From assembly GCA_026004935.1 (NCBI GenBank), contig BPKC01000001.1, forward strand, positions 806,001 through 870,000: a stretch of 64,000 bases of DNA, written 5' to 3'. Below, piece after piece: positions 6,492-44,246 of the stretch. Under the pieces are notes generated by a model. The model was not told where the DNA came from. It saw nothing but the letters and a program-made list of their open reading frames with translations, and did no database searches. The number at the start of each line of letters is the position of its first letter. Positions within the stretch are counted from its first letter, which is position 1. Source of the DNA: Rhodothalassiaceae bacterium (GTDB taxonomy: Bacteria; Pseudomonadota; Alphaproteobacteria; Sphingomonadales; Rhodothalassiaceae). Made by a program: the position numbers and the translations under genes.

Positions 6492-9400
6492 CTATTCCGC
6501 GGCCAGCAGCCGCTCGGCGCGCTCGAGATCGACGCTCACCAGCTGCGAGACGCCCTTCTCGCGCATCGTCACCCCGTAGAGCCGGTGCATCCGCGCCATC
6601 GTGAGCTCGTTGTGGGTGACGATCAGAAACCGCGTGCCCGTGCGCCGCACCATCTCGTCGAGCAGATCGCAGAAGCGCTCGACATTGGCCTCGTCCAGCG
6701 GCGCGTCCACCTCGTCCAGCACGCAGATCGGCGCCGGATTGGTGAGGAAGACGGCAAACACCAGCGCCAGCGCCGTCAGCGTCTGCTCGCCGCCCGAAAG
6801 CAGGGACAGCGACTGCAGCCGCTTGCCCGGCGGACGGGCCATGATCTCGAGCCCGGCTTCCAGCGGGTCGTCGGATTCGACGAGCGCAAGCTCCGCATGC
6901 CCGCCCTCGAACAGCCGCGCGAAGAGCTCGCCGAAATGGCGGTTGACCGCCTCGAAGGCCTCGAGAAGCCGCACCCGGCCCTCGCGGTTGAGGCTGGAGA
7001 TCGCCTGGCGCAGCCGCTGGATGGCGGCCTCGAGATCCGCCTTCTCGCCGCTCAGGTGCTCCAGCTGCTCGGCCAGATCCTTCATCTCGATCTCGGCGCG
7101 CAGATTGACGGCGCCGAGCCGCTCGCGCCGGGCGCGCGCCTCGGCCAGCTCCGCCTCGAGCGCGGCCGCGTCTTGCGGCAGGTCCTCCTCGCGTTCGGCC
7201 ATGCGCGTGCGGAACTGGGCCGCCGTCATCTGGAAGCGCTCGGAGATGTCGTGGATCACCTCCTCGAGGCGCCGGGCGGCGTGCTCGGCCTCGGCCTCGG
7301 CGCGCGCCCGCGCCTCGCGGGCGGTGGCCATCTCCTCCTGGGCGGTCTTCAGCGTCGCCTGCGCCTCGCGCCTTGCCGCTTCGGCCGCCGACAGCCGGTC
7401 GGCGATTCCGCGCAGACTGCGTTCCGCCTCTTCGCCGAGCCGCGCGAGCTCGGCGAGCCTGTCCGCGATCTCCTCCGGGCGCCGGGCGAGCGCGGCCTCC
7501 TGGGCGGCGAGCTCCTCGGCGCGCTTCTTCAGATTTTCGAGCCGGCGCGTGGCGGTGTCGCGCCGCTCGGACCAGGCCTTCCGCTCGGCGAGAAGCGTCT
7601 CGCGCCGGCGGGCGATGTCCTCGGCCTCGCGCTGGACGGCCTTGAGCTCGCCGTCGGCGGCGTCGAAGGCCTCGCGCGCCTCGCGCACCGCCTCTTCCGC
7701 CGCGGCGAGCGCGGTCTCGAGCCCGCCGGCGTCCGCGAGCGCCGCCCGCTCGGCCTCCAGGCTTTCGCGCCGTGCGACGAGCTCCGCCCGTTCGCGCGCG
7801 AGCGCCTCGAGCCGCGTCTGTTCCGCCTTGCGCCGGGCCTCTAGCTGAACGCGCGCGGCTTCCGCCTTCTGCAGGGCGTTGCGGGCCTCCCGCAGGGCCG
7901 TCTCCAGCTCGCGCTGGCGACTTGCGAGCGCCTCGCGCTCCTCGCGCGCGGCCGCTTCCGCCGCCGCGGCCGCCTCGAGGGCCTGACGGGCCTCGTCCTC
8001 CGCGCGGCGCGAGTCGGCGAGGCGGCCTTCGAGTGCCTTAAGCCGGTTGCGCGCCTCGAGCAGGCGCGCGTTCTCCGCCGCCGCATCGGGCCGTCCGAGC
8101 CGCCCGTCGGCCGCAAGCAGAAGCCCGCTCCGGGTCACGACCGCCCAGCCGGGGGGCAGATCCCGCTGAAGCGCGAGAAGCCGCCCGGCCTCCTCGGGGC
8201 CCTCCCACAACAGCACCGTCTCGAGCCGCCGCGCCGCCGGCGGCGGGCATTCGGGAAGCAGCCGGGCGAGCGGCACGAGCCCGCCCGGCGCCTCGGCCGC
8301 ATCCCCGAAGGGCGGCAGCGGGCGCAGGGCCGGCTCCTCGGGCAGCACCCCCGCATCGTCGACGACGGGCAGATGCGCCAGATCGGCAAGCGCGCCCGCC
8401 ACGGCCGCCTCCAGCCCTTCCGGGACGGAGATCCGCAGCCAGGGCTGTTCACGGTCCTGCGCGCGCGACAGCGAATCGGCGAGCGCCGCATGCTCCGATT
8501 CTTCCGCGACGCGCCGGGCGCGGGCGGCAGCCAGCTCCTCCTCGCGGGCCTTGCGCCGCTCCCGCTGATCGGCAAGCGTCGCATCGGCGGCCGCGATCGC
8601 CTCCGCGATCCGCCCGAGCTCGGCTTCGCAATCCGCGAGCGCCGCCCGCCGCTCGGCAATTTCCGCATCGAGCCGCTCGAGCTCCGCCGCATGGCGTTCG
8701 AGGCCGGAATCGGCGAGATCCTCCTCGATCGCCTCGATCCGGCGGGCGAGCGCAAGCAGGTCGCTCTCGAGCCCCGCCCGGCGCCCGCGCGCCTCCGCCA
8801 GCCGGCGCGCCGCCTCGTCGCGCGCGCGCTGGACCTCCTCGAGCGCGGCCCGTGCCGCCTCGCGCGCGGCTTCCGCCTTCCCCCGCTCGGCGGCCAGCGC
8901 GGGCAGACGCCCGTCCAGCCGCGCGATCTCCTCGGACAGGCGGGCAAGGCTCCGGCGCGCGTCGGCGAGACGCTCCTCCTCGTGGGCGACGTCCTCAGCC
9001 AGCAGCCGGCGCTGGCGGGCGAGTTCCGCGCTCTCGCGGGCCAGCCGCTCGCGCTCCTCCTCCGCGGTGCGGCGCTCGAGGAGAAGGCGATTCAAGGCCG
9101 CGCGCGCGGCGTCCATCTCCTCGCGCAGAGGCTGGATGGCCTCATCCGCCGCAAGCGCCGCCTTCTCCGCCTCGGCCAGCCGGCGCGCGGCTGCGGCCAG
9201 CACCGACTCGCCGCGGGTCAGCGCCTCGCGCGCGGCGATCCCGGCGGCCTCCGCCTCGCGCAGCCGGCACCACAGCAGCCAGGCCTCGAGCAGACGGATC
9301 CGCCGCGACAGCTCGCGATAGCGCTCGGCGCGGCGGGCCTCGCGCTTGAGCTGGGCGATGCGGGCCTCGAGGTCGGCGATGACCTCGGCGACCCGCGCGA

Positions 9401-9983
9401 GATTGTCCTCGGCATGGGAGAGCTTCTGCTCGGCCTCCCGACGGCGGCTGTAAAGGCCGGAAATGCCGGCCGCCTCCTCGAGCACGATGCGCCGGTCGGC
9501 GGGTCCGGCCTGGATCAGCTCGGCGATCCGGCTCTGACCGATGAGCGAGGGCGAGCGCGCGCCGGTGGCGGCATCGGCGAAGAAGCGCTGCACGTCCTTC
9601 GCCCGCACCTCGCGGCCGTTGATGCGGTAGAGCGAGCCCATGTCGCGCTCGATCCGGCGCAGGATCTCGATTTCGTCGGAATCGTTGAACTCGCCCGGCG
9701 CGTCCCGGTCGCGGTTGTCGATGACGAGCGCGACCTCGGCGATGTTGCGGGCGGGCCGCCGGTCCGTGCCCGCGAAGATCACCTCCTCCATCGCCTTCGA
9801 GCGCAGGGTGGAGGGCGCATGCTCGCCCATCACCCAGCGCAGCGCCTCGACGAGGTTGGACTTGCCGCAGCCGTTGGGCCCGACGATGCCGGTGAGCCCG
9901 TCCTCGATCCGCAGCTCGGTCGGATCGGCGAAGGACTTGAAACCCGCGATCTTCAGACGGTTGAAGTGCACGGCTCGGACCAC
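6492..9983 (-). CDS. smc: chromosome segregation protein SMC
   Basis: 1163 aa, the full length for SMC. The N-terminal head has Walker A ([16 protein letters not shown]). Two long coiled coils rich in Glu, Arg and Ala flank a hinge at about residues 500-650. The C-terminal head carries the ABC signature ([12 protein letters not shown]) and Walker B ([15 protein letters not shown]). It acts with ScpA/ScpB to compact and segregate the chromosome. The start is a GTG at 9983; a second in-frame GTG at 9971 ([14 protein letters not shown]) matches the usual family N-terminus and is an alternative. It follows the DsbA-like gene by 31 bp in the conserved mutY/dciA/dsbA/smc neighbourhood. Confidence 0.97.
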
Positions 9984-10014
9984 CCCGGCATTGCGCCCGC
10001 CGCCGCAGCGCCGC

Positions 10015-10740
10015 TCACGAGAGTTCCCTGTCGATCTCGCGCGCGAGCTCCTCGAAGCTGCCGATGGCAGGCAGCTTGCGGCCGTTCAGGATCAGGGTCG
10101 GCGTGCCCTGGATGTCGTAGCGCTCGCTTGCGGCCTTGTTTGCGTCGATCAGCTTCTGCTGCAGCGCCTTGTCGGCGATGCAGCGGTCGAAGTCGGCGCG
10201 GCTGACGCCGGCGCGGCGGAAGACCGCGGCGATGTCGGAGAGGATCGTCTCGCGGTCGCCCGAGCGCAGATTGCGCATCCACTCCGCCTGGCGCGCGAAG
10301 ATCATCTCGATGAGCGGCCACTGGACCTCCTGCGGCTGGCAGCGCACGGCCGTGGTGACCACGAGATCGAGGGGGTTGAGGATGAAATTGCGGAAGACGT
10401 AGCGGACCTTGCCGGTGTCGATGTAGGTCTCCTTGAGCTTGGGGTAGATCTCTTCGGCAAAATGGGCGCAGTGGGGGCAGGTCAGCGAGGCGTATTCGAT
10501 GAGGGTGAGCGGCGCATCCGGCGCGCCGATCACGATGTCCGGAATGCCGGCCGTCACCTCGGAATCGTCGATCGGCGCCCCCGCCTCCGTCGCGGCGCTC
10601 CCGGCCGCGCCCGAGGCCGAAGCCGGCTCCTCGGCCTTGCGCTCGCAGGCGGCCAGCCCCGCCAGCATCAGCAGCAGCACGGCGAGCACGCCAAGGCCGC
10701 CGCGCGCGCGCGTCATTGCGCCTGAAGCGAAACCCCGCAT
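10015..10740 (-). CDS. DsbA-family thioredoxin-like lipoprotein
   Basis: 241 aa from ATG 10740, which follows GGGAGAAGAAG; an upstream in-frame ATG at 10821 lacks such a site. A hydrophobic signal ends in the lipobox LAAC (Cys at about residue 32), so the mature protein should be a periplasm-facing lipoprotein. The thioredoxin active site is CPHC in ASLTCPHCAHFAEEIYP, followed by a DsbA-type helical insertion and a cis-Pro loop (GTPTLILNG). The family oxidises or isomerises disulfides in exported proteins. Located between dciA and smc on the same strand. Confidence 0.9.
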   Translation of the reverse strand: MRGFASGAMTRARGGLGVLAVLLLMLAGLAACERKAEEPASASGAAGSAATEAGAPIDDSEVTAGIPDIVIGAPDAPLTLIEYASLTCPHCAHFAEEIYPKLKETYIDTGKVRYVFRNFILNPLDLVVTTAVRCQPQEVQWPLIEMIFARQAEWMRNLRSGDRETILSDIAAVFRRAGVSRADFDRCIADKALQQKLIDANKAASERYDIQGTPTLILNGRKLPAIGSFEELAREIDRELS

Positions 10741-13503: not shown

Positions 13504-15421
<1,918 letters not shown>

Positions 15422-23218: not shown

Positions 23219-23700
23219 GCCGGACGCTTGCCGACGAGCCGCCGGTCGATGCCGATCCCGGGCTGCTCGCCCGCTTCCTCGACATCTTCAAGAGTCCGGC
23301 CTTCGATCTCGTGGGCGGCGAGGTGCTCGCGCTCGACGGGCGGCACGGCCGCGCGCGCCTGCGCTTCCTGCCCGGCGAGCATCTGCTCAACCCGCTCGGC
23401 ACCGTCCAGGGCGGGATGCTGACGGTGATGCTGGATTCGACCGCGGCCATTGCGGCGATTGCGAAAAGCGGGGTCACCGTCTTCCTGCCCACCCTCGAGA
23501 TCAAGACGAGCTTCATCGCCCCGGCCCGGCCGCGTCCGCTCATCGGCATCGGCCAGTGCATCCATCTCGGCCGCTCCGTCGCCTTCGTGGAAGGGGCGCT
23601 CTATGACGAGGCGGGCGGGCACCTCGTCGCCCGGGCATCCGCCACCGCGCGGCCCATTCTCATGGCCCGGGCCATGGCCGGAGGGGGCGTCAAAAGCTGA
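23215..23700 (+). CDS. PaaI-family hotdog thioesterase
   Basis: 161 aa from a GTG at 23215 that overlaps the coxM-like stop (GTGA). The hotdog core has NPLGTVQGGMLTVMLDSTAA, where HGG of the family appears as QGG and the catalytic Asp/Glu position is occupied by Asp. TLEIKTSFIAPARPRPLIG and the GRSVAFVEGALYDEAG strand follow. The family hydrolyses acyl-CoA thioesters. Coupling to the molybdenum hydroxylase subunits suggests aromatic or xenobiotic acid metabolism, an inference only. Its end overlaps the convergent lpxR-like gene by 11 bp. Confidence 0.85.
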   Translation: MSRTLADEPPVDADPGLLARFLDIFKSPAFDLVGGEVLALDGRHGRARLRFLPGEHLLNPLGTVQGGMLTVMLDSTAAIAAIAKSGVTVFLPTLEIKTSFIAPARPRPLIGIGQCIHLGRSVAFVEGALYDEAGGHLVARASATARPILMARAMAGGGVKS

Positions 23701-24760
23701 TGCTGAGGCCGGCGTGGCCGAAGGCCTGGCCTTCGCTCTGGCCGCGGAACTCCTTGCCGCGCAGGGTGTAGCCGTAGGTGAGCGCGACGTGACGCCAGGA
23801 AAGGCGCCCGCCGATGGTGAGCTCGAACAGCGCCCGCTGGACCGGCACCGTCACCGGCGCATCGCGCAGGAAGGGCCCCTGGAGCAGCCGGTTCCAGCCG
23901 ACGAGGCGTCCTCCGAGCCCGGCGAAGACCTCGAAGCTCGCGCGCCGGTCGGCCTCGGGCACGAACGGGCTGCCGACGATCATCGGCCCGATCCGGGCGG
24001 GCAGCCGCCGGCCGATGCGCCAGCCGCCCCGCAGCACCACGCCGGCATCCGCCGCCAGCGACACGGTTCCGATCTCCGCGCCCGCAAACGGGGCGAGCTG
24101 CAGCGCCGCGCCCTCCGGATCGCCGGCCAGCGTCAGATACCGGCTCTGGCGGTAGGCGAGCTGAAGCGCGGGAGAATTGGGCAGCTGATTCGCCCAGCCG
24201 AGCGGGCGCGGCGAATCGACGAGCTCGTGGACGGCGGTCTGCGTCTGGCGCGCGAGCGCGGCCGGCCCCACGACCCCCGCCGAGATCAGCCATTCGTCGC
24301 GGCGGTCGCCGGCAAGCGCCGTGCTGCCGGCCTCCAGATACAGCCAGCCCGCATAAGGCCGGTCCCCGAAGAGGGGCGAGGCCACCTTGATGGTCCGCGG
24401 CGTGTACATGTTCTGGCCGAGCGCGAAGAGATGCCGGTGGGCATGGGGTTCGGCGGCGAGATCCGCGCGGTCAAGGCCGAGGCTCAGACGGAGCAGCGCG
24501 TCGCTCGCCCGGTTCGGCCAGGGTGTCGCCCGATCGCGCGCCCGCCAGGTGACGACGAGCCGCGCGCCGTTCGTGTACCAGCGGTCCTCGCCGTCGCCGT
24601 AGAGGTCATTCTCGCTCTGGAAGGTCACGGTTCCGGCCGGTGCGGGAGCGGGTGCCAGGGTGCAGAGCAGCAGCGCGCATCCGGCAGGAAGAAGCCGCCG
24701 CGCCCGGAGCTTGCGCCCGCCGCGCGCGCGGGAGGCTTCTCGTGGGGGAATTCTGGTCAT
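23690..24760 (-). CDS. LpxR-family (DUF2219) outer-membrane lipid A deacylase-like protein
   Basis: 356 aa from ATG 24760, preceded by GGAGAGCGC. A signal peptide (LLPAGCALLLCTLAPAPAPAG) is followed by TFQSENDLYGDGEDRWYTNG, the LpxR/DUF2219 signature with the Asn and Asp that bind metal. A beta-barrel ends in a C-terminal Phe (GHAGLSISF), fitting BAM-dependent insertion. LpxR removes the 3'-acyloxyacyl group of lipid A. Its 5' side faces the PBP-like gene across a 345-bp divergent region with an AT-rich island. Confidence 0.85.
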   Translation of the reverse strand: MTRIPPREASRARGGRKLRARRLLPAGCALLLCTLAPAPAPAGTVTFQSENDLYGDGEDRWYTNGARLVVTWRARDRATPWPNRASDALLRLSLGLDRADLAAEPHAHRHLFALGQNMYTPRTIKVASPLFGDRPYAGWLYLEAGSTALAGDRRDEWLISAGVVGPAALARQTQTAVHELVDSPRPLGWANQLPNSPALQLAYRQSRYLTLAGDPEGAALQLAPFAGAEIGTVSLAADAGVVLRGGWRIGRRLPARIGPMIVGSPFVPEADRRASFEVFAGLGGRLVGWNRLLQGPFLRDAPVTVPVQRALFELTIGGRLSWRHVALTYGYTLRGKEFRGQSEGQAFGHAGLSISF

Positions 24761-25105
24761 GCGCTCTCCGTCACGGGTTGGCGATGCGGCACGGTCGCGA
24801 TGCCGCATGCTCCAATCGCGGGAAGATGTCCATTTTGCGGCCGCTTGACGAAGGCCGGGGGCCTGCGGCGCCGGGCGGCTGCTTCCGCAACGTTCCGGCG
24901 AGGCAACATATTACTGATCAACCGAGTGAGTTTTAAGCATTTTTAAATAAATTTTTTCACATTTTTTCCGCGGCAAGGGTGCAGGGGGCGGCGAATCGCC
25001 GGCAGTTGAGCCGGCAGTCCCGCCTGGCGCGGAAGGCGGCCGGGCAATCACCGCGAGAATGTCGCGCCGTCCCGAGGCACGAGAGGCGCAAGGGAGGGAA
25101 CGTCC
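24761..25105. other. divergent intergenic region with an AT-rich island
   Basis: 345 bp between the lpxR-like gene (minus) and the PBP-like gene (plus). Bases about 24904-24972 are strongly AT-rich, including TTTTTAAATAAATTTTTTC. They must contain or lie close to both promoters, yet I see no clear -35/-10 pair. GAGAGGCGCAAGGGAGG lies before the PBP-like start. Confidence 0.55.
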
Positions 25106-25975
25106 ATGAGCCTTCATGAGGAGGGGCGATCGGAGGATGCCGCCGGCAGCCGAGGGGGCTGCGCAAGGGTGGCCCCGCTCGTCGCGCTGACGGTGACGCT
25201 GCTTGCGGGCCTGATCGCGGCCGATGCGTCGGCAGACGGTGACGGCCTGGCATCCGCCTCCGCGGCGGTGGCCACCCCCTTCGGCGCCCTGCCGTCTTCC
25301 CTGATGGCCGGCGCCCGCCCGCCCGCCGGGCCGGCCTCCGGGAGCTTGTCGGCGGTGGCGGTGGAGCGGGGGGAGGTCAGACAGCTTGCGGCCTGCCGGT
25401 CGCTGTTCTTCGTCGTCACGCACGAGGCGGGCTACGCGCCGCCCGAGGACGGGCAGGCCCTGCGCGCGCTGCTGCGCGGCTTCTATCTCGGGCTCGAGCC
25501 GGAATGGCCCGACGGGCTGCGCGCCTATCCGCTGGCGCGTCCGGCCGACCATCCGGCGAGCCGCATGATCGAAAGGGAGGTGATCGCTGCCGCGCCGGCG
25601 GAAATCGCCCATCACTGGCAGGTGATGGCGCAGCGCTTCGGCCAGACTCCGCCGCCGGTGGTCGAAAGCCCGCGCCTGATTCTCGAGCTCGTGGCGCGGC
25701 GCCCCGGCGTCGTCGCGATCCTCGCCGGCGACGAGCTGCCGCCGCTGGCCCACTGGCCGCGCCAGGTGGTGATCGCGGCCACGCTCGGCGCCCCGGCGGC
25801 CCGCGCGCAATGCCCGCTCGCGCAGCGGCGGCTTGCCTCCGTGCGCCACGAGGGGCCGCAGTCCACCGATGCCACGGGCCTCCTGGCGGCTGCGGGCGGC
25901 CGCGCGAGTTCCGACGGTCGAGACCGGGCGGGCGGGCTTGGGCCATCGTTCGTGCCCGGTTACCGCGTCCCATGA
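25106..25975 (+). CDS. periplasmic binding-protein-like protein (PstS-like half domain)
   Basis: 289 aa. A hydrophobic segment at residues about 23-44 (VAPLVALTVTLLAGLIAADA) is a signal peptide or anchor. Residues about 110-220 align with the shorter protein at 28678-29151: both contain PLARPAD followed by PA, an HW dipeptide, G(Q/E)TPP and a following Leu-rich helix. That segment resembles one lobe of phosphate-type substrate-binding proteins. The C-terminal 50 residues are unlike the paralogue and low in recognisable structure. The stop overlaps the next start as ATGA, so the two proteins are probably made together. Ligand unknown. Confidence 0.65.
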   Translation: MSLHEEGRSEDAAGSRGGCARVAPLVALTVTLLAGLIAADASADGDGLASASAAVATPFGALPSSLMAGARPPAGPASGSLSAVAVERGEVRQLAACRSLFFVVTHEAGYAPPEDGQALRALLRGFYLGLEPEWPDGLRAYPLARPADHPASRMIEREVIAAAPAEIAHHWQVMAQRFGQTPPPVVESPRLILELVARRPGVVAILAGDELPPLAHWPRQVVIAATLGAPAARAQCPLAQRRLASVRHEGPQSTDATGLLAAAGGRASSDGRDRAGGLGPSFVPGYRVP

Positions 25976-27057
25976 GCAGGGCCCGCCGATCGCCGCCGCG
26001 CCCGCTTGCGCGCATCGCGCCGCCCGTGCTCGACGAGGCGCCGGTGCTGGCCGACTGGCGCGGCCGGCTGATCGTCGTCACGCTGCTGTTTCTCGTCGTG
26101 ATCGTCTTTGCCGTCATTCAGGTGGCCGGATCGGCGCATCGCGCCGAGCGCGCGGTGCGCGCGGTCGACGGCGACATCGAGGCCTTCCGCATGCTGTTCG
26201 AGGCGCAGGCGGCGCTGGACGAGCTCAAGCGCGCCGCCTTCGCGCTGGTGCAGACGCGCAGCGAATGGGCGCTGACGGAGACCGAGCGGGCCGAAAGCCG
26301 CTTCCTCGCCCTCGTCGAGCGCCTGCCCGAGGCCGACGAGATCGACCGCAAGGCGCTTGCCTACAATGCGAAGCGCGTGCGCGACCTGCTGGAGGATGTT
26401 ATCGCGCGCTCGGTGTTCGACGGCGCCTCGCGCATGAGCGAGAGCATGCATGCGCTGCGGGTGCTCTTCGAGGAGAGCGGCGAGATTCTGACCACGCTCC
26501 ACGCCAAGCAGGAGCGGGCGACCAGCGCGCGCCTCGCCGCACATGCCCGCGCGCTGGGATCGGCGGTCACCCGCAGCATCCTGCTGCTTGCGCTCACCGC
26601 CGCCTTCCTGATCGCCATGGCGGCGCTCTTCGAGTGGCTGTCCGCCCGGCGCCGGCGATTCCTGGCAAGGAGCGTCGCCGCCATCGCGGAAGGGGCGCGC
26701 GATCTGCGCTTCGGCGCCTACGACATCCGCAGCGATCTGGGGCGCACGCTGTCCCACCTCGAAGAGCTGCAACAGCAGCTCACCGACCTCGAGCTTGCGG
26801 TCTCCTCCTCCCAGCTCGAGATCGGGGACCTGCGCAAGAGGCATGCGGACGAGCGCAGCGGGCTCGAGCGCGAGCTTGCGGCCCTGCGCGAGGAGCTGGA
26901 GAAGACGCGCCTGCGCGAAGAGGCGCTGCGGGATCTGCTCGCCCGCCACGCCCCGGCCGTCGGGCGCGGCGATGCACCCGCACAAGGGGCAACCGATTCG
27001 CCGGGCGGGGCGGTGCATCCGCTGCGCAACCAGTCGCCACGCTCCGCCCGCGCCTGA
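25972..27057 (+). CDS. two-TM HAMP/coiled-coil transducer-like protein without output domain
   Basis: 361 aa from ATG 25972. TM1 (LIVVTLLFLVVIVFAVIQVA, residues about 33-53), a periplasmic helical region of about 150 residues rich in Glu and Ala, then TM2 (ILLLALTAAFLIAMAALFEW). A HAMP-like stretch (AAIAEGARDLRFGAYDI) leads into a long coiled coil with heptads (LEELQQQLTDLELAVSSSQ and ERELAALREELEKTRLREEA). The architecture matches the N-terminal half of chemoreceptors or histidine kinases, but there is no methyl-accepting, kinase, GGDEF or receiver domain before the tail. Coupled by ATGA to the PBP-like gene. Function unknown. Confidence 0.7.
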   Translation: MSRARRSPPRPLARIAPPVLDEAPVLADWRGRLIVVTLLFLVVIVFAVIQVAGSAHRAERAVRAVDGDIEAFRMLFEAQAALDELKRAAFALVQTRSEWALTETERAESRFLALVERLPEADEIDRKALAYNAKRVRDLLEDVIARSVFDGASRMSESMHALRVLFEESGEILTTLHAKQERATSARLAAHARALGSAVTRSILLLALTAAFLIAMAALFEWLSARRRRFLARSVAAIAEGARDLRFGAYDIRSDLGRTLSHLEELQQQLTDLELAVSSSQLEIGDLRKRHADERSGLERELAALREELEKTRLREEALRDLLARHAPAVGRGDAPAQGATDSPGGAVHPLRNQSPRSARA

Positions 27058-27349
27058 CGGCCGGCCGGATGCGGCGCGGACGGGCCGTCAATTTCCACAA
27101 CGGCTTGTTAAAACCTCAAGGCGATTCCGCGCGTCCGCCCAATTTCCAGAAAAACCATCAGTAGCATATTCCAAGCTTGGCAAGTAACGAACTACCAATT
27201 CTTCTAAGGCACCCCTCGTCAAGCCGCGGGCGTTCCCTTTTTAGCTTCCCGTTAACTTTATTCTGCGAGGATCCCTCCCGCTGTTGAGAGGGGCTGCCAT
27301 CCGCCACAAACCAGGAGAGGACGCCGTGATCATCACGAGAGGGACGGAC
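27058..27349. other. intergenic region before the porin operon
   Basis: About 290 bp. It is less GC-rich than its surroundings between about 27070 and 27270, with stretches such as TTTCCAGAAAAACCATCAG and CCCTTTTTAGCTTCCCGTTA. It probably carries the promoter of the porin/PBP-like/MCP operon, but I could not assign -35/-10 boxes, a PHO box or an intrinsic terminator. Confidence 0.5.
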
Positions 27350-28660
27350 ATGGCGCGCCGGCGCACAGCTTCTGCGGGTGCGCTCGCGCTTGCGTTGCTG
27401 GCCGCGGCTGCGGCCGGTACCGCGGCCGCCGCCCAGCAGCCGGCGGGCGACGACGAGGTCGCGCGGCTGCGCAAGGAGGTGGAGGTTCTCAAAGGGCTGG
27501 TCGAGCAGCTCGGGGCCGAGGTCGCGCGGCTCAAGGCCGAGAAGGCGGCCGGCGGCGGCGACGTCTCGGCCCTGCCGCTCGCCGAGCGCATCGACAGGCT
27601 GACGAGCAAGGTCGAGGCGGCCAATGCGCGCCTCGACGAGGTGGAGAATATCGTCATCGAGACCGACGAGAAGGTGGGTTCGCGCGCGATCGCCCATGCC
27701 TTCAACGCCGACAAGCTGGACATCGGCGGCTTCCTTCACACCGCCGCGACCCTGGTCGACGGGCGGGACAATACGGAGGTCGCCGTCAACCGCCTGACCT
27801 TCGAGCTGCTGGGACGCGCGCAGCTGTCGGAGAACTGGTCGGTCTTCGTGGCCCAGGCCTTCATCCGCGAATCGGACATCAACTACACCGATCCCTTCGG
27901 GCGCTTCGACCCGAATTTCAATGTCGTGGTGAAGACGCCGCTCGTCATCGCGACGGCAAGCTACCGTCAAAGCGACCTGCTCGCCATCGATCTCGGCCGC
28001 TTCATCACGCCGCACGGCATCATCAACATCGAGCACTTTCCGGCGATCCTGCTGGATACGGAGCAGCCGCAGTTCCTGCGCCCCTTCGGCGGCCAGACGA
28101 TCTTTGCGAACTTCATGAACGGGGCGCGGATCTCCGGGCAGACCTTCACGGGCTTCGGCGGCAAGGGCACGCTGGGCTACGCCGCCTATGTGGGCAGCTT
28201 CGTCAACAACGCCGACAGCTTCAACTACGGCGGCCGCCTGTTCTACAGCTTCGGCGACAGCGGGGTCACCGCGGGCCTCAATCTCGGCGGCGGCCGGCGC
28301 GCCGGCGAGGGTTCGCAGTACTGGCTGTTCGGCGGCGATCTGCTCATCGACCGCGGCCCCGTGCTGTGGAAGAGCGAGATCTTCGCAACCGACGAGGATC
28401 TGGGCGGCAACCGGCTCGCCTTCTACACCCAGCCCGCCTGGCGCATCGACGACCGCTGGACGGCCTTCTACCGCTTCGACTTCCTGGACGACGGCACCGG
28501 CACGGGCGACCGCATCGAGCATGCGGCGGGCATCACCTTCAAGCCGGATCCGGACATCCATCTCAGACTCATCTTCCACCGCGACCGGTTCCGCGCGGCG
28601 CCCGGATTCCCGAAGGCGAACGCCGAATCCTACCAGTTCGCCGCAACCTTCTCGTTCTAG
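27350..28660 (+). CDS. outer-membrane porin with N-terminal coiled coil
   Basis: 436 aa from ATG 27350, after GAGAGGGACGGAC. A GTG at 27326 with an even better ribosome-binding site (AGGAGAGG) would add eight residues. A signal peptide (LALALLAAAAAGTAAAAQQ) is followed by a coiled coil (DDEVARLRKEVEVLKGLVEQ and ERIDRLTSKVEAANARLDEV), then a beta-barrel of alternating aromatic strands ending FAATFSF with a terminal Phe. The coil-plus-barrel layout resembles DcaP-type trimeric porins. It lies 17 bp upstream of the second PBP-like gene, suggesting delivery of the same ligand into the periplasm. Specificity unknown. Confidence 0.78.
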   Translation: MARRRTASAGALALALLAAAAAGTAAAAQQPAGDDEVARLRKEVEVLKGLVEQLGAEVARLKAEKAAGGGDVSALPLAERIDRLTSKVEAANARLDEVENIVIETDEKVGSRAIAHAFNADKLDIGGFLHTAATLVDGRDNTEVAVNRLTFELLGRAQLSENWSVFVAQAFIRESDINYTDPFGRFDPNFNVVVKTPLVIATASYRQSDLLAIDLGRFITPHGIINIEHFPAILLDTEQPQFLRPFGGQTIFANFMNGARISGQTFTGFGGKGTLGYAAYVGSFVNNADSFNYGGRLFYSFGDSGVTAGLNLGGGRRAGEGSQYWLFGGDLLIDRGPVLWKSEIFATDEDLGGNRLAFYTQPAWRIDDRWTAFYRFDFLDDGTGTGDRIEHAAGITFKPDPDIHLRLIFHRDRFRAAPGFPKANAESYQFAATFSF

Positions 28661-28677
28661 GGCAGGGGAGGGACGCC

Positions 28678-29151
28678 ATGATGAGAGCATGCGCAGGCTT
28701 CCGGTACGCGGCGGCGCTGCTGCTGGCCGGAGTGATGCTTGCCGCCGGCGGGAGCCCGGCGGCGGCCGCCGAATACGCGGTGATCGTGAACGCCGCCAAT
28801 CCCGATGCGGGCAAGGGCGAGGCGCTGCGCGAGGTCGTCAAGCGGCTCTTTCTGAAGGAGCAGACGACCTGGCCGTCGGGCACGCCCGCCCAGCCGCTCG
28901 CGCGGCCGGCGGATTCGCCCGCCCAGAAGGCCTTCGTGGCCAAGGTGCTGGGCATGGATCAGGCCGCGCTCGACCAGCACTGGCTCAGACTGAAGCAGAC
29001 GAAGGGCGAAACCCCGCCGCGCGAGGTGGGCTCGGCGCTGATCCTGACGCGGCTGGTGAGCAAATACGAGGGCGCCTTTTCGGTCGTGAGCGCCGAGGAG
29101 GCCGCCGCTCTGCCGGAGGGTGTGGCGGTGCTGTTCCGCTTCACCGACTGA
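28678..29151 (+). CDS. short periplasmic binding-protein-like protein (PstS-like half domain)
   Basis: 157 aa from ATG 28678, with CAGGGGAGGGACGCC upstream. A signal peptide ends near GGSPAAAAEYAV. The mature protein (VIVNAANPDAGKGEALREVV, then TWPSG, PLARPAD, HWLRLKQTKGETPP and SALILTRLVSKYEGAFSVV) resembles one lobe of phosphate-type substrate-binding proteins. It is about half the length of a bilobal PstS, so it is a truncated or single-lobe form rather than an ABC-transporter component; no permease or ATPase is nearby. It is paralogous to the protein at 25106. Position between porin and MCP suggests a ligand-presenting role. Confidence 0.75.
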   Translation: MMRACAGFRYAAALLLAGVMLAAGGSPAAAAEYAVIVNAANPDAGKGEALREVVKRLFLKEQTTWPSGTPAQPLARPADSPAQKAFVAKVLGMDQAALDQHWLRLKQTKGETPPREVGSALILTRLVSKYEGAFSVVSAEEAAALPEGVAVLFRFTD

Positions 29152-29226
29152 ACGGGTCCCGCATCCCGGTGCGAACGGGGGCGCCGGGATGCGGGAACGG
29201 AAAGGCCGACGAAAGGGCGCACGCCG

Positions 29227-31011
29227 ATGAGGAAGAGGTGGCAGACAATGCTGTCGTGGATCACCGACCGTCTCGCCCGTGCCTCGGTGCGCGCCCGGAT
29301 CTTCGCGCTCGTCGGCGCGCTCGCCGGCGTCGCGCTGCTGGGCTCGCTCGTCGTCGTCGTCCAGAACATGCGCGCGCGCTCGGCCGTGGAGGAGCAGGCC
29401 GCGGAGCTGGCCGCCCTCGAGACGGCGAACGCCGCGGTGCGGGCCTTCGACCGCATGCGCTACTGGTATGCGGATCTCGCGATCTCGCTCGCCGATGACG
29501 CGCTCAAGAACGCCGAAGCCGCCGGTGCCGAATACCGCGAGGGGCTGGCGGGTATCGCGGCGCTGGCGGATGCGGACCGCGCCCGGCTGCTGGCGGATGT
29601 GGAGAAGGTCAAGGCCCTCTCGCTCGAGGCTCTCGACCATTTCGTCATGGAGGAGCAGAAGGAGGGCGCGGCGAAGATGGCCGAGATCCGCGCCATCGTC
29701 GCGGCGGACGACCTGATCCTCGCCGATCTCCTCGAACGCCTGCGCGCGGGTGCGCGCGCCCGCGCCGCCGCCGTCGAGGCGCGCAGCGTCAGCGCAAGCT
29801 GGTCGGCCGCGGTGACCCTCGTCCTGATCCTGCTCGGCGCCGGTGCGATCGCGTTCACCACGGAGCGCACGGTCATCCGCCCGCTCGTCGCCATCACCGG
29901 GGCGACCGAGGAGGTCGCCGCCGGTGCGCTCGATACGCCGGTGCCCTTCACCGATCAGACGAGCGAGCTCGGGGCACTGGCCCGCGCGGTCGAGATCTTC
30001 CGCGAGAACGCGAAACGCATGCGGGACATGCAGGCCGAGCGCGAACGAATGGCGGCCGAACGCGAGGCCGAGCGCGCGCGGTTGGAGGCCGAAAGGCGGG
30101 CCGCGGAAGAGGAGCAGCGCGCGGCGCTGGAGCGGGAATTCGCCCGTCAGCGCGCACTCGCGCAGTCGGTGATCGAGCTTCTGGAAGGCCGCGTCTTCCA
30201 GTCGCTGGACGCCGTGGTCGCGTCGGCCCACGAGCTCGAGACCGCATGGCGCAGCATGGACCATTCGCTCGCCACCTCCCAGAAACGCGCCGCCGAGGTC
30301 TCGAGCGCGTCCGAGATCGCGAGCGAGAACGCGCAGATGGTGGCTTCCGCGGCCGAGCAGCTTGCGGGCTCCGTCAAGGAGATCACGCAGCAGATCACCC
30401 GCTCGTCCGCGATCGCCCGTGAGGCGGTGGCCAAGCAGGAGTCGGTGGCGGCTTCCGCCCAGCGGATGCATCAGCTCACCGGTGAGATCACCAATGTCAT
30501 ATCGGTCATCGACGACATCGCCGACATGACCAATCTGCTGGCGCTCAACGCCACGATCGAGGCGGCGCGCGCCGGCGAGGCCGGGAAGGGATTTGCGGTG
30601 GTGGCGGCCGAGGTGCGCGCGCTCGCCGGGCAGACCCAGCGCGCGACCGAGAGCATCGCCGAGCAGCTCTCGCTCATCCGCGAGGCCAGCGAAGAGACGG
30701 TGCGCGCCGTGGCCGAGATCGGCGACCGGATCCGCGCGATCGACGAGGTCTCCTCCACGGTCGCGGCGGCGGCCGAGGAACAGGAGGCCTCCACCGGCGA
30801 GATCAGCCGCACCATCGCGGATGCGGCCGAGGCGACCCGGGGGATCTCCACCAAGATCGCGGAGGTCGTCCAGGACATCCAGGAAACCGGCGCATCCGCC
30901 CGTCAGGTGGCGGAGGCGGCCGCGCAGCTCAAGACGATCGCCTCGCAGCTGCGCGCGGAGGTCGAGCGGTATCTCGCCGGCCTCGACACCGACCAGCGCG
31001 CCGCCTCCTGA
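29227..31011 (+). CDS. methyl-accepting chemotaxis protein
   Basis: 594 aa. TM1 ([20 protein letters not shown], about residues 25-45), a periplasmic helical domain of about 150 residues, TM2 ([19 protein letters not shown]) and HAMP ([19 protein letters not shown]), then a long charged coiled coil and the signalling domain. The hairpin tip is [20 protein letters not shown] with [16 protein letters not shown], the CheA/CheW contact region. There is no C-terminal CheR/CheB pentapeptide. It lies 75 bp downstream of the PBP-like gene and likely senses ligand through it. No che genes occur in this window. Confidence 0.93.
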
Positions 31012-43995: not shown

Positions 43996-44246
43996 CCCGC
44001 TCAGGCCAGCGGATGAGGAGTGCGGGCCCGGCTCCTCCGAGCGGGCGGACGGCCGACAAAGAGAAGAAAGGCGGGTTCGCCACCCTCATGGGGGGCGGGA
44101 GCGGGACGGCCGGTCGCGCAGCCCGACCGGGATGCGGGAGGCGCCGGCCTGCGGTGGCGGGGCCGCCGCAGCCATGCTACATCATGCCGCTCAGGTGACG
44201 CAGGCGGCGCGCAGGCGGCGCAGCGCAGAGCGGGGAGGTGACCGGC

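Follow-up and report, generated by a model that had tools for sequence, protein, structure and literature searches.

Single-lobe PstS-like proteins encoded with an outer-membrane barrel and a chemoreceptor in a Rhodothalassiaceae bacterium, and a diverged pair beside them

Layout of the locus

The window analyzed is a 64,000-nucleotide stretch of contig BPKC01000001.1 from a Rhodothalassiaceae bacterium. It contains five forward-strand genes, which are referred to as A to E and whose coordinates and order had been given correctly in the initial annotation. The features of the locus are as follows.

23690-24808 (-): LpxR (PF09982), lipid A deacylase type, upstream of A and B
25106..25975 (+): A, single-lobe PstS-like domain (residues ~98-225) in a secreted or anchored protein, preceded by a 55-residue Ala/Pro/Gly-rich linker
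25397..25780 (+): PstS-lobe-like domain of A, model pLDDT 84.7, top fold matches to PstS proteins
25972..27057 (+): B, two-TM protein with a C-terminal coiled coil and without an output domain, probably a diverged E-type receptor
26125..26568 (+): periplasmic helical region of B, from hydropathy and a profile match to the E-type sensor
27350..28660 (+): C, outer-membrane barrel with a coiled coil at the N-terminus
28678..29151 (+): D, single-lobe PstS-like protein with a signal peptide
29157..29196 (+): 16-bp hairpin in the D-E gap; the 78-nt gap folds at -45.8 kcal/mol (z -4.4)
29227..31011 (+): E, methyl-accepting chemotaxis protein (MCP) with a helical periplasmic domain that has no Pfam name
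29362..29796 (+): periplasmic sensor domain of E, with the family motifs YWYxDLAxSLSxE and YxMEE/DR..G

The genes A and B overlap by ATGA, so that the start codon of B lies within the stop codon of A. Third-position GC by frame is 0.87 for A and 0.89 for B, and 0.89-0.91 for C, D, and E. Hence, A and B look coding, as third-position GC tracks their frames in the same way as in the other three genes. The domain of A is flanked by the low-complexity linker (25232-25396, 55 residues) and by a 60-residue tail (25781-25972), neither of which is present in D; the codon-phase signal is lost over this tail, the last 60 codons of A. A sigma-70 promoter scan at the locus returned no match. The hairpin between D and E (29157-29196) is a perfect 16-bp stem without a T run, and its core TCCCGCATCCCGG has two further copies, an exact one at 44127-44139 (-) and one with a single mismatch at 15247-15259 (-). 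The D-E gap in the related genome J084 folds no better than chance. The hairpin is possibly an element for processing or for setting the D:E ratio.

Single-lobe proteins and their neighbors

A and D are true homologues. The segment that had been noticed as shared by the two aligns by BLASTP with 34% identity over 96 residues (E=1e-18), and the motifs PLARPAD..PA, HW, and G(Q/E)TPP were confirmed in both. With D as the query, a whole-genome search matched no protein other than D itself and A (E=9.5e-16). A tree of 69 rows nests A in a D-type clade of 15 rows with a support of 100/98, and the end branch of A is 2.11 compared with a median of 0.33. The AU test gave p values of 0.39 and 0.32 for placing A beside the family's own D, values that neither favor nor reject this position. 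All 70 homologues have Trp72 (numbered as in mature D), and 68 have Pro84.

The models of A and D share the fold of one PstS lobe, in line with the half-size PstS-like reading of the initial annotation. The D model, which was built with four relatives, has a mean pLDDT of 95.6 and best matches the PstS proteins 4exl and 1twy in the PDB (E about 2e-6 to 4e-6), with a TM-score of 0.66 by query length and about 0.35 by target length. The same two structures are the best matches of the A domain model, with E about 1e-3. Mature D has 127 residues and is modeled as one lobe rather than two enclosing a ligand. As one lobe of a PstS-like clamshell, D would thus be unable to form a closed two-lobe pocket. 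In Pfam, PBP_like_2 (PF12849) matches D with 16.2 bits (E=0.009), which is under the curated cut-off of 27, and the best of nine relatives with E=9e-7; a PBP_like_2 scan of A gave no match.

The gene leading the second set had been described as a coiled-coil porin. A Pfam scan of C itself returned no porin match, but the barrel assignment stands because of the profile match of its family and its terminal aromatic residue: in profile-profile comparison the C family matches, with 97.7% probability, barrels of which some have a Porin_4 or Porin_O_P match. C-D-E is a conserved operon. This genome is placed close to Iodidimonas, and its relatives are I. muriae (L020), strain Q-1 (L021), and MAG J084 (L019). 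C, D, and E are adjacent and in unchanged order in 12 other genomes, namely these three and nine other alphaproteobacteria. Among 251 genomes of the order, an E-type receptor is present in 11 of the 12 with a D-type gene versus 1 of the 239 without (Fisher p=3e-17, by a test that ignores shared ancestry). The operon conservation and the co-occurrence support the earlier proposal that porin, single-lobe protein, and chemoreceptor make up one unit. At the locus L028 (genome G024; 8058-10543, minus strand), C and D are paired but no E-type receptor is present, and a candidate ECF sigma factor gene comes next; D may therefore work independently of E. In three family members (L023, L024, and L025), an LpxR-type gene lies divergently upstream of the barrel/binding protein/MCP unit.

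The single-lobe family is spread across Proteobacteria, with an outer-membrane barrel as the usual neighbor. In the samples searched, it was found in 6 of 385 class, 15 of 251 order, and 56 of 399 phylum genomes, with up to six gene copies per genome. About 60 of 69 single-lobe loci have a barrel-like neighbor by a crude rule (330-520 residues and an aromatic last residue); A is not among these loci; the barrel that the rule indicated beside it was a spurious frame. Pfam assigned Porin_4 to 8 and Porin_O_P to 3 of 35 such barrels. The 34 long proteins scanned downstream of single-lobe genes contain HAMP (22), HisKA (14), MCPsignal (13), and GGDEF (3). The transducers downstream of the 69 loci (A excluded) are 13 MCP, 14 histidine-kinase, and 3 GGDEF proteins. 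For many gammaproteobacterial copies, the barrel is the sole one of these partners nearby, so that in the family at large it is the barrel, not the receptor, that stays constant. A second single-lobe unit is present in J084 (L022, 3223-6029), composed of a barrel, a single-lobe protein, and a large two-TM transducer that is truncated by the contig end; it belongs to a different subfamily and groups with histidine-kinase-linked copies. A plasmid search gave one distant match and a phage search none. A search of the open-access literature yielded no study of single-lobe PstS proteins in connection with porins or receptors.

The E-type receptor and the A-B pair

Each binding-protein-like gene had been said to be followed by a two-TM transducer with a periplasmic region of about 150 residues. 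Such a protein was found in both places, as E and B each have two TM helices with about 145 residues between them. E is a complete MCP as previously described, with HAMP (40.4 bits) and MCPsignal (97.3 bits) both above Pfam cut-offs. Among the E-type sensors outside C-D-E, those of four genomes (L180, L181, L182, and L183) are preceded by a Tll0287-like protein (PF11845, E 1e-13 to 8e-18), one (L178) comes after a type-2 binding-protein-like gene (read by eye, with no Pfam assignment), and three have no partner adjacent. The strongest argument for these receptors sensing via soluble partners is the recurrent layout, in which the gene of an E-type receptor comes after that of a soluble periplasmic protein; this layout supports indirect sensing through a partner that appears swappable. 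Tll0287 domains are c-heme Cache domains that are often stand-alone, and redox roles have been suggested for the stand-alone ones (2026 preprint, PMC12889525). The four stand-alone Tll0287-like proteins here are encoded directly 5' of E-type receptors, and this position suggests that they may be soluble sensory inputs rather than redox proteins only.

B probably descends from an E-type receptor, judging from profile comparisons. Its first 240 residues align colinearly with the E-type sensor profile at 36.2 bits, compared with 11.6 for the best of 2000 shuffles, and its periplasmic part alone reaches 20.7 bits, compared with at most 10.4. With B as the query, the top five matches (L086, L023, L087, L178, and L025) are all E-type. 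BLASTP detects no similarity between B and E, and B is absent from the matches of an own-genome search with the E-type profile, which was a coarse first pass. Two generic four-helix MCPs, L184 (40.1 bits) and L185 (35.1 bits), match B in score when the full E profile is used, and the descent of B from E therefore falls short of proof. On the periplasmic part of the profile, these two score 14.7 and -0.5 bits, respectively, compared with 18.9 for B in that comparison, and this part gives nothing with six further MCPs encoded in the genome. Most of the near-invariant positions of E-type sensors (F, Y, W, S, L, and G) are lost in B.

The initial annotation had B ending after HAMP and a coiled coil. 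The coiled coil is present and preceded by HAMP-like sequence, but Pfam does not detect HAMP in B even at E up to 1. MCPsignal was not matched in B either, and A-B would hence be incapable of signaling to CheA alone, as B has no kinase-control domain. A remnant MCP domain was sought downstream of B and dismissed, the only matches being weak and either reverse-strand or coiled-coil.

A-B is located between LpxR and C, and is absent from every relative searched, as is B by itself. J084, I. muriae, and Q-1 lack A-B and have LpxR immediately beside C, and no intergenic similarity marks an insertion point. The condition set in the initial annotation, that the pairs be kept together in close genomes, has a split outcome: D-E stays paired, but A-B was found nowhere else. 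The description of the first module as a diverged copy is borne out for A by the tree and is probable for B by the profile. The notion of two parallel modules as equals is not supported, since the first lacks its own porin, a signaling domain, and any known relative beyond this genome.

Proposed mechanism and alternatives

On balance we favor a reading in which C-D-E is an indirect-sensing chemotaxis unit and A-B is a fast-evolving copy of D-E without output, most likely a modulator or a relic. The barrel C would admit or bind a solute at the outer membrane, and soluble D would capture the solute or report on C. D would then dock on the helical periplasmic domain of E, which would control CheA, with the signaling direction and the ligand passage presumed to follow this order. 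The missing half of the D pocket would have to be supplied by E, C, or a second D; otherwise D would be a pure adaptor. A-B might modulate the main unit or persist as a relic beside it.

That D is a Pho-type phosphate or oxyanion sensor seems quite improbable. Phosphate-binding PstS proteins are the nearest folds to D, and 14 of 15 D-clade sequences have an Arg (Arg46) close to where PstS binds its anion; yet family-wide only 21 of 70 homologues retain this Arg, the SGT anion motif occurs in none of the 70, and half of the PstS pocket is missing in D. PHO box matches around the genes are rarer than by chance, no pstCAB-type transporter genes are beside D or A, and a canonical PstS is encoded elsewhere in the genome (L187) with a PstC-like gene adjoining. 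Phosphate as the ligand of D appears disfavored, and the motifs do not favor phosphate-type ligands, which the initial annotation had listed for binding assays. Its statement that these are not ABC importers agrees with the surroundings of both genes. It is rather unlikely, though less so, that D chiefly partners the barrel C as a periplasmic plug, assembly factor, or transit protein, and that the receptor senses that complex rather than a D-delivered ligand. A barrel is beside about 60 of 69 single-lobe loci compared with about 31 followed by signaling proteins, C-D exists without E in L028, and the N-terminal coiled coil of C is periplasmic. The tight co-occurrence of D-type and E-type genes (11 of 12) argues against this alternative, and so does the repetition of the soluble protein and E-type receptor layout without any single-lobe protein.

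As for A-B, it is conceivable, but doubtful, that the pair is a decaying and functionless relic of a duplicated D-E pair. Such a fate would agree with the long branch of A, with the loss from B of most near-invariant sensor positions and of a signaling domain, and with the absence of the pair from all relatives searched. It is less easily reconciled with the frames of A and B, which stay open for 289 and 361 codons with third-position GC of 0.87-0.89 following each, with the retention of W, GxTPP, and WPxG in A, and with the start-stop overlap of the two genes behind a good ribosome site ahead of A. We regard it as possible, again only tentatively, that A and B act as a decoy or mixed receptor damping E signaling. 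A resembles D and B probably resembles E in the domains expected to touch each other, and the kinase-control tip is missing in B; the motif residues common to E-type receptors are lost in B, however, and the docking face may be among them.

Soluble binding proteins feeding receptors are an established principle, and indirect sensing through them is represented by LuxP-LuxQ, TorT-TorS, and MBP-Tar. Like these systems, D-E pairs the gene of a soluble periplasmic protein with that of a two-TM receptor; unlike them, its soluble partner is half-size and a barrel is part of the unit. D shares a one-lobe fold and a weak profile match with PstS/PBP_like_2, but it is a single lobe without the SGT motif and has no adjacent ABC transporter. 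The E-type sensor resembles 4HB_MCP_1 (PF12729) in its two TM helices with a helical stretch of about 145 residues between them; this family matches one of nine E-type members (E=0.003), with no other curated match, and the E-type sensor differs in its own conserved motifs. The stand-alone DUF3365/Tll0287 sCache_heme proteins (PMC12889525) are, like D, soluble and periplasmic, and in four genomes lie directly upstream of E-type receptors, but they have a heme Cache fold, not that of PstS.

A bolder generalization, which we offer as a speculation, is that the E-type helical domain serves as a general docking receptor with three exchanged kinds of partner (single-lobe PstS, type-2 binding protein, and c-heme Cache), that the single-lobe protein contributes one half of a composite ligand site and its receptor or barrel the other, and that A-B is a natural signaling-dead copy of such a pair. 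The half-size protein, its barrel partnership, and the partner range of the receptor are seemingly undescribed in the open-access literature searched. The locus provides a working hypothesis for a widespread half-size family, in which its members would be barrel partners and soluble inputs to chemoreceptors, kinases, and diguanylate cyclases. Through the E-type receptor, this family is linked to the stand-alone heme-Cache proteins, and A-B would be a naturally occurring example of how a sensory pair loses its output after duplication.
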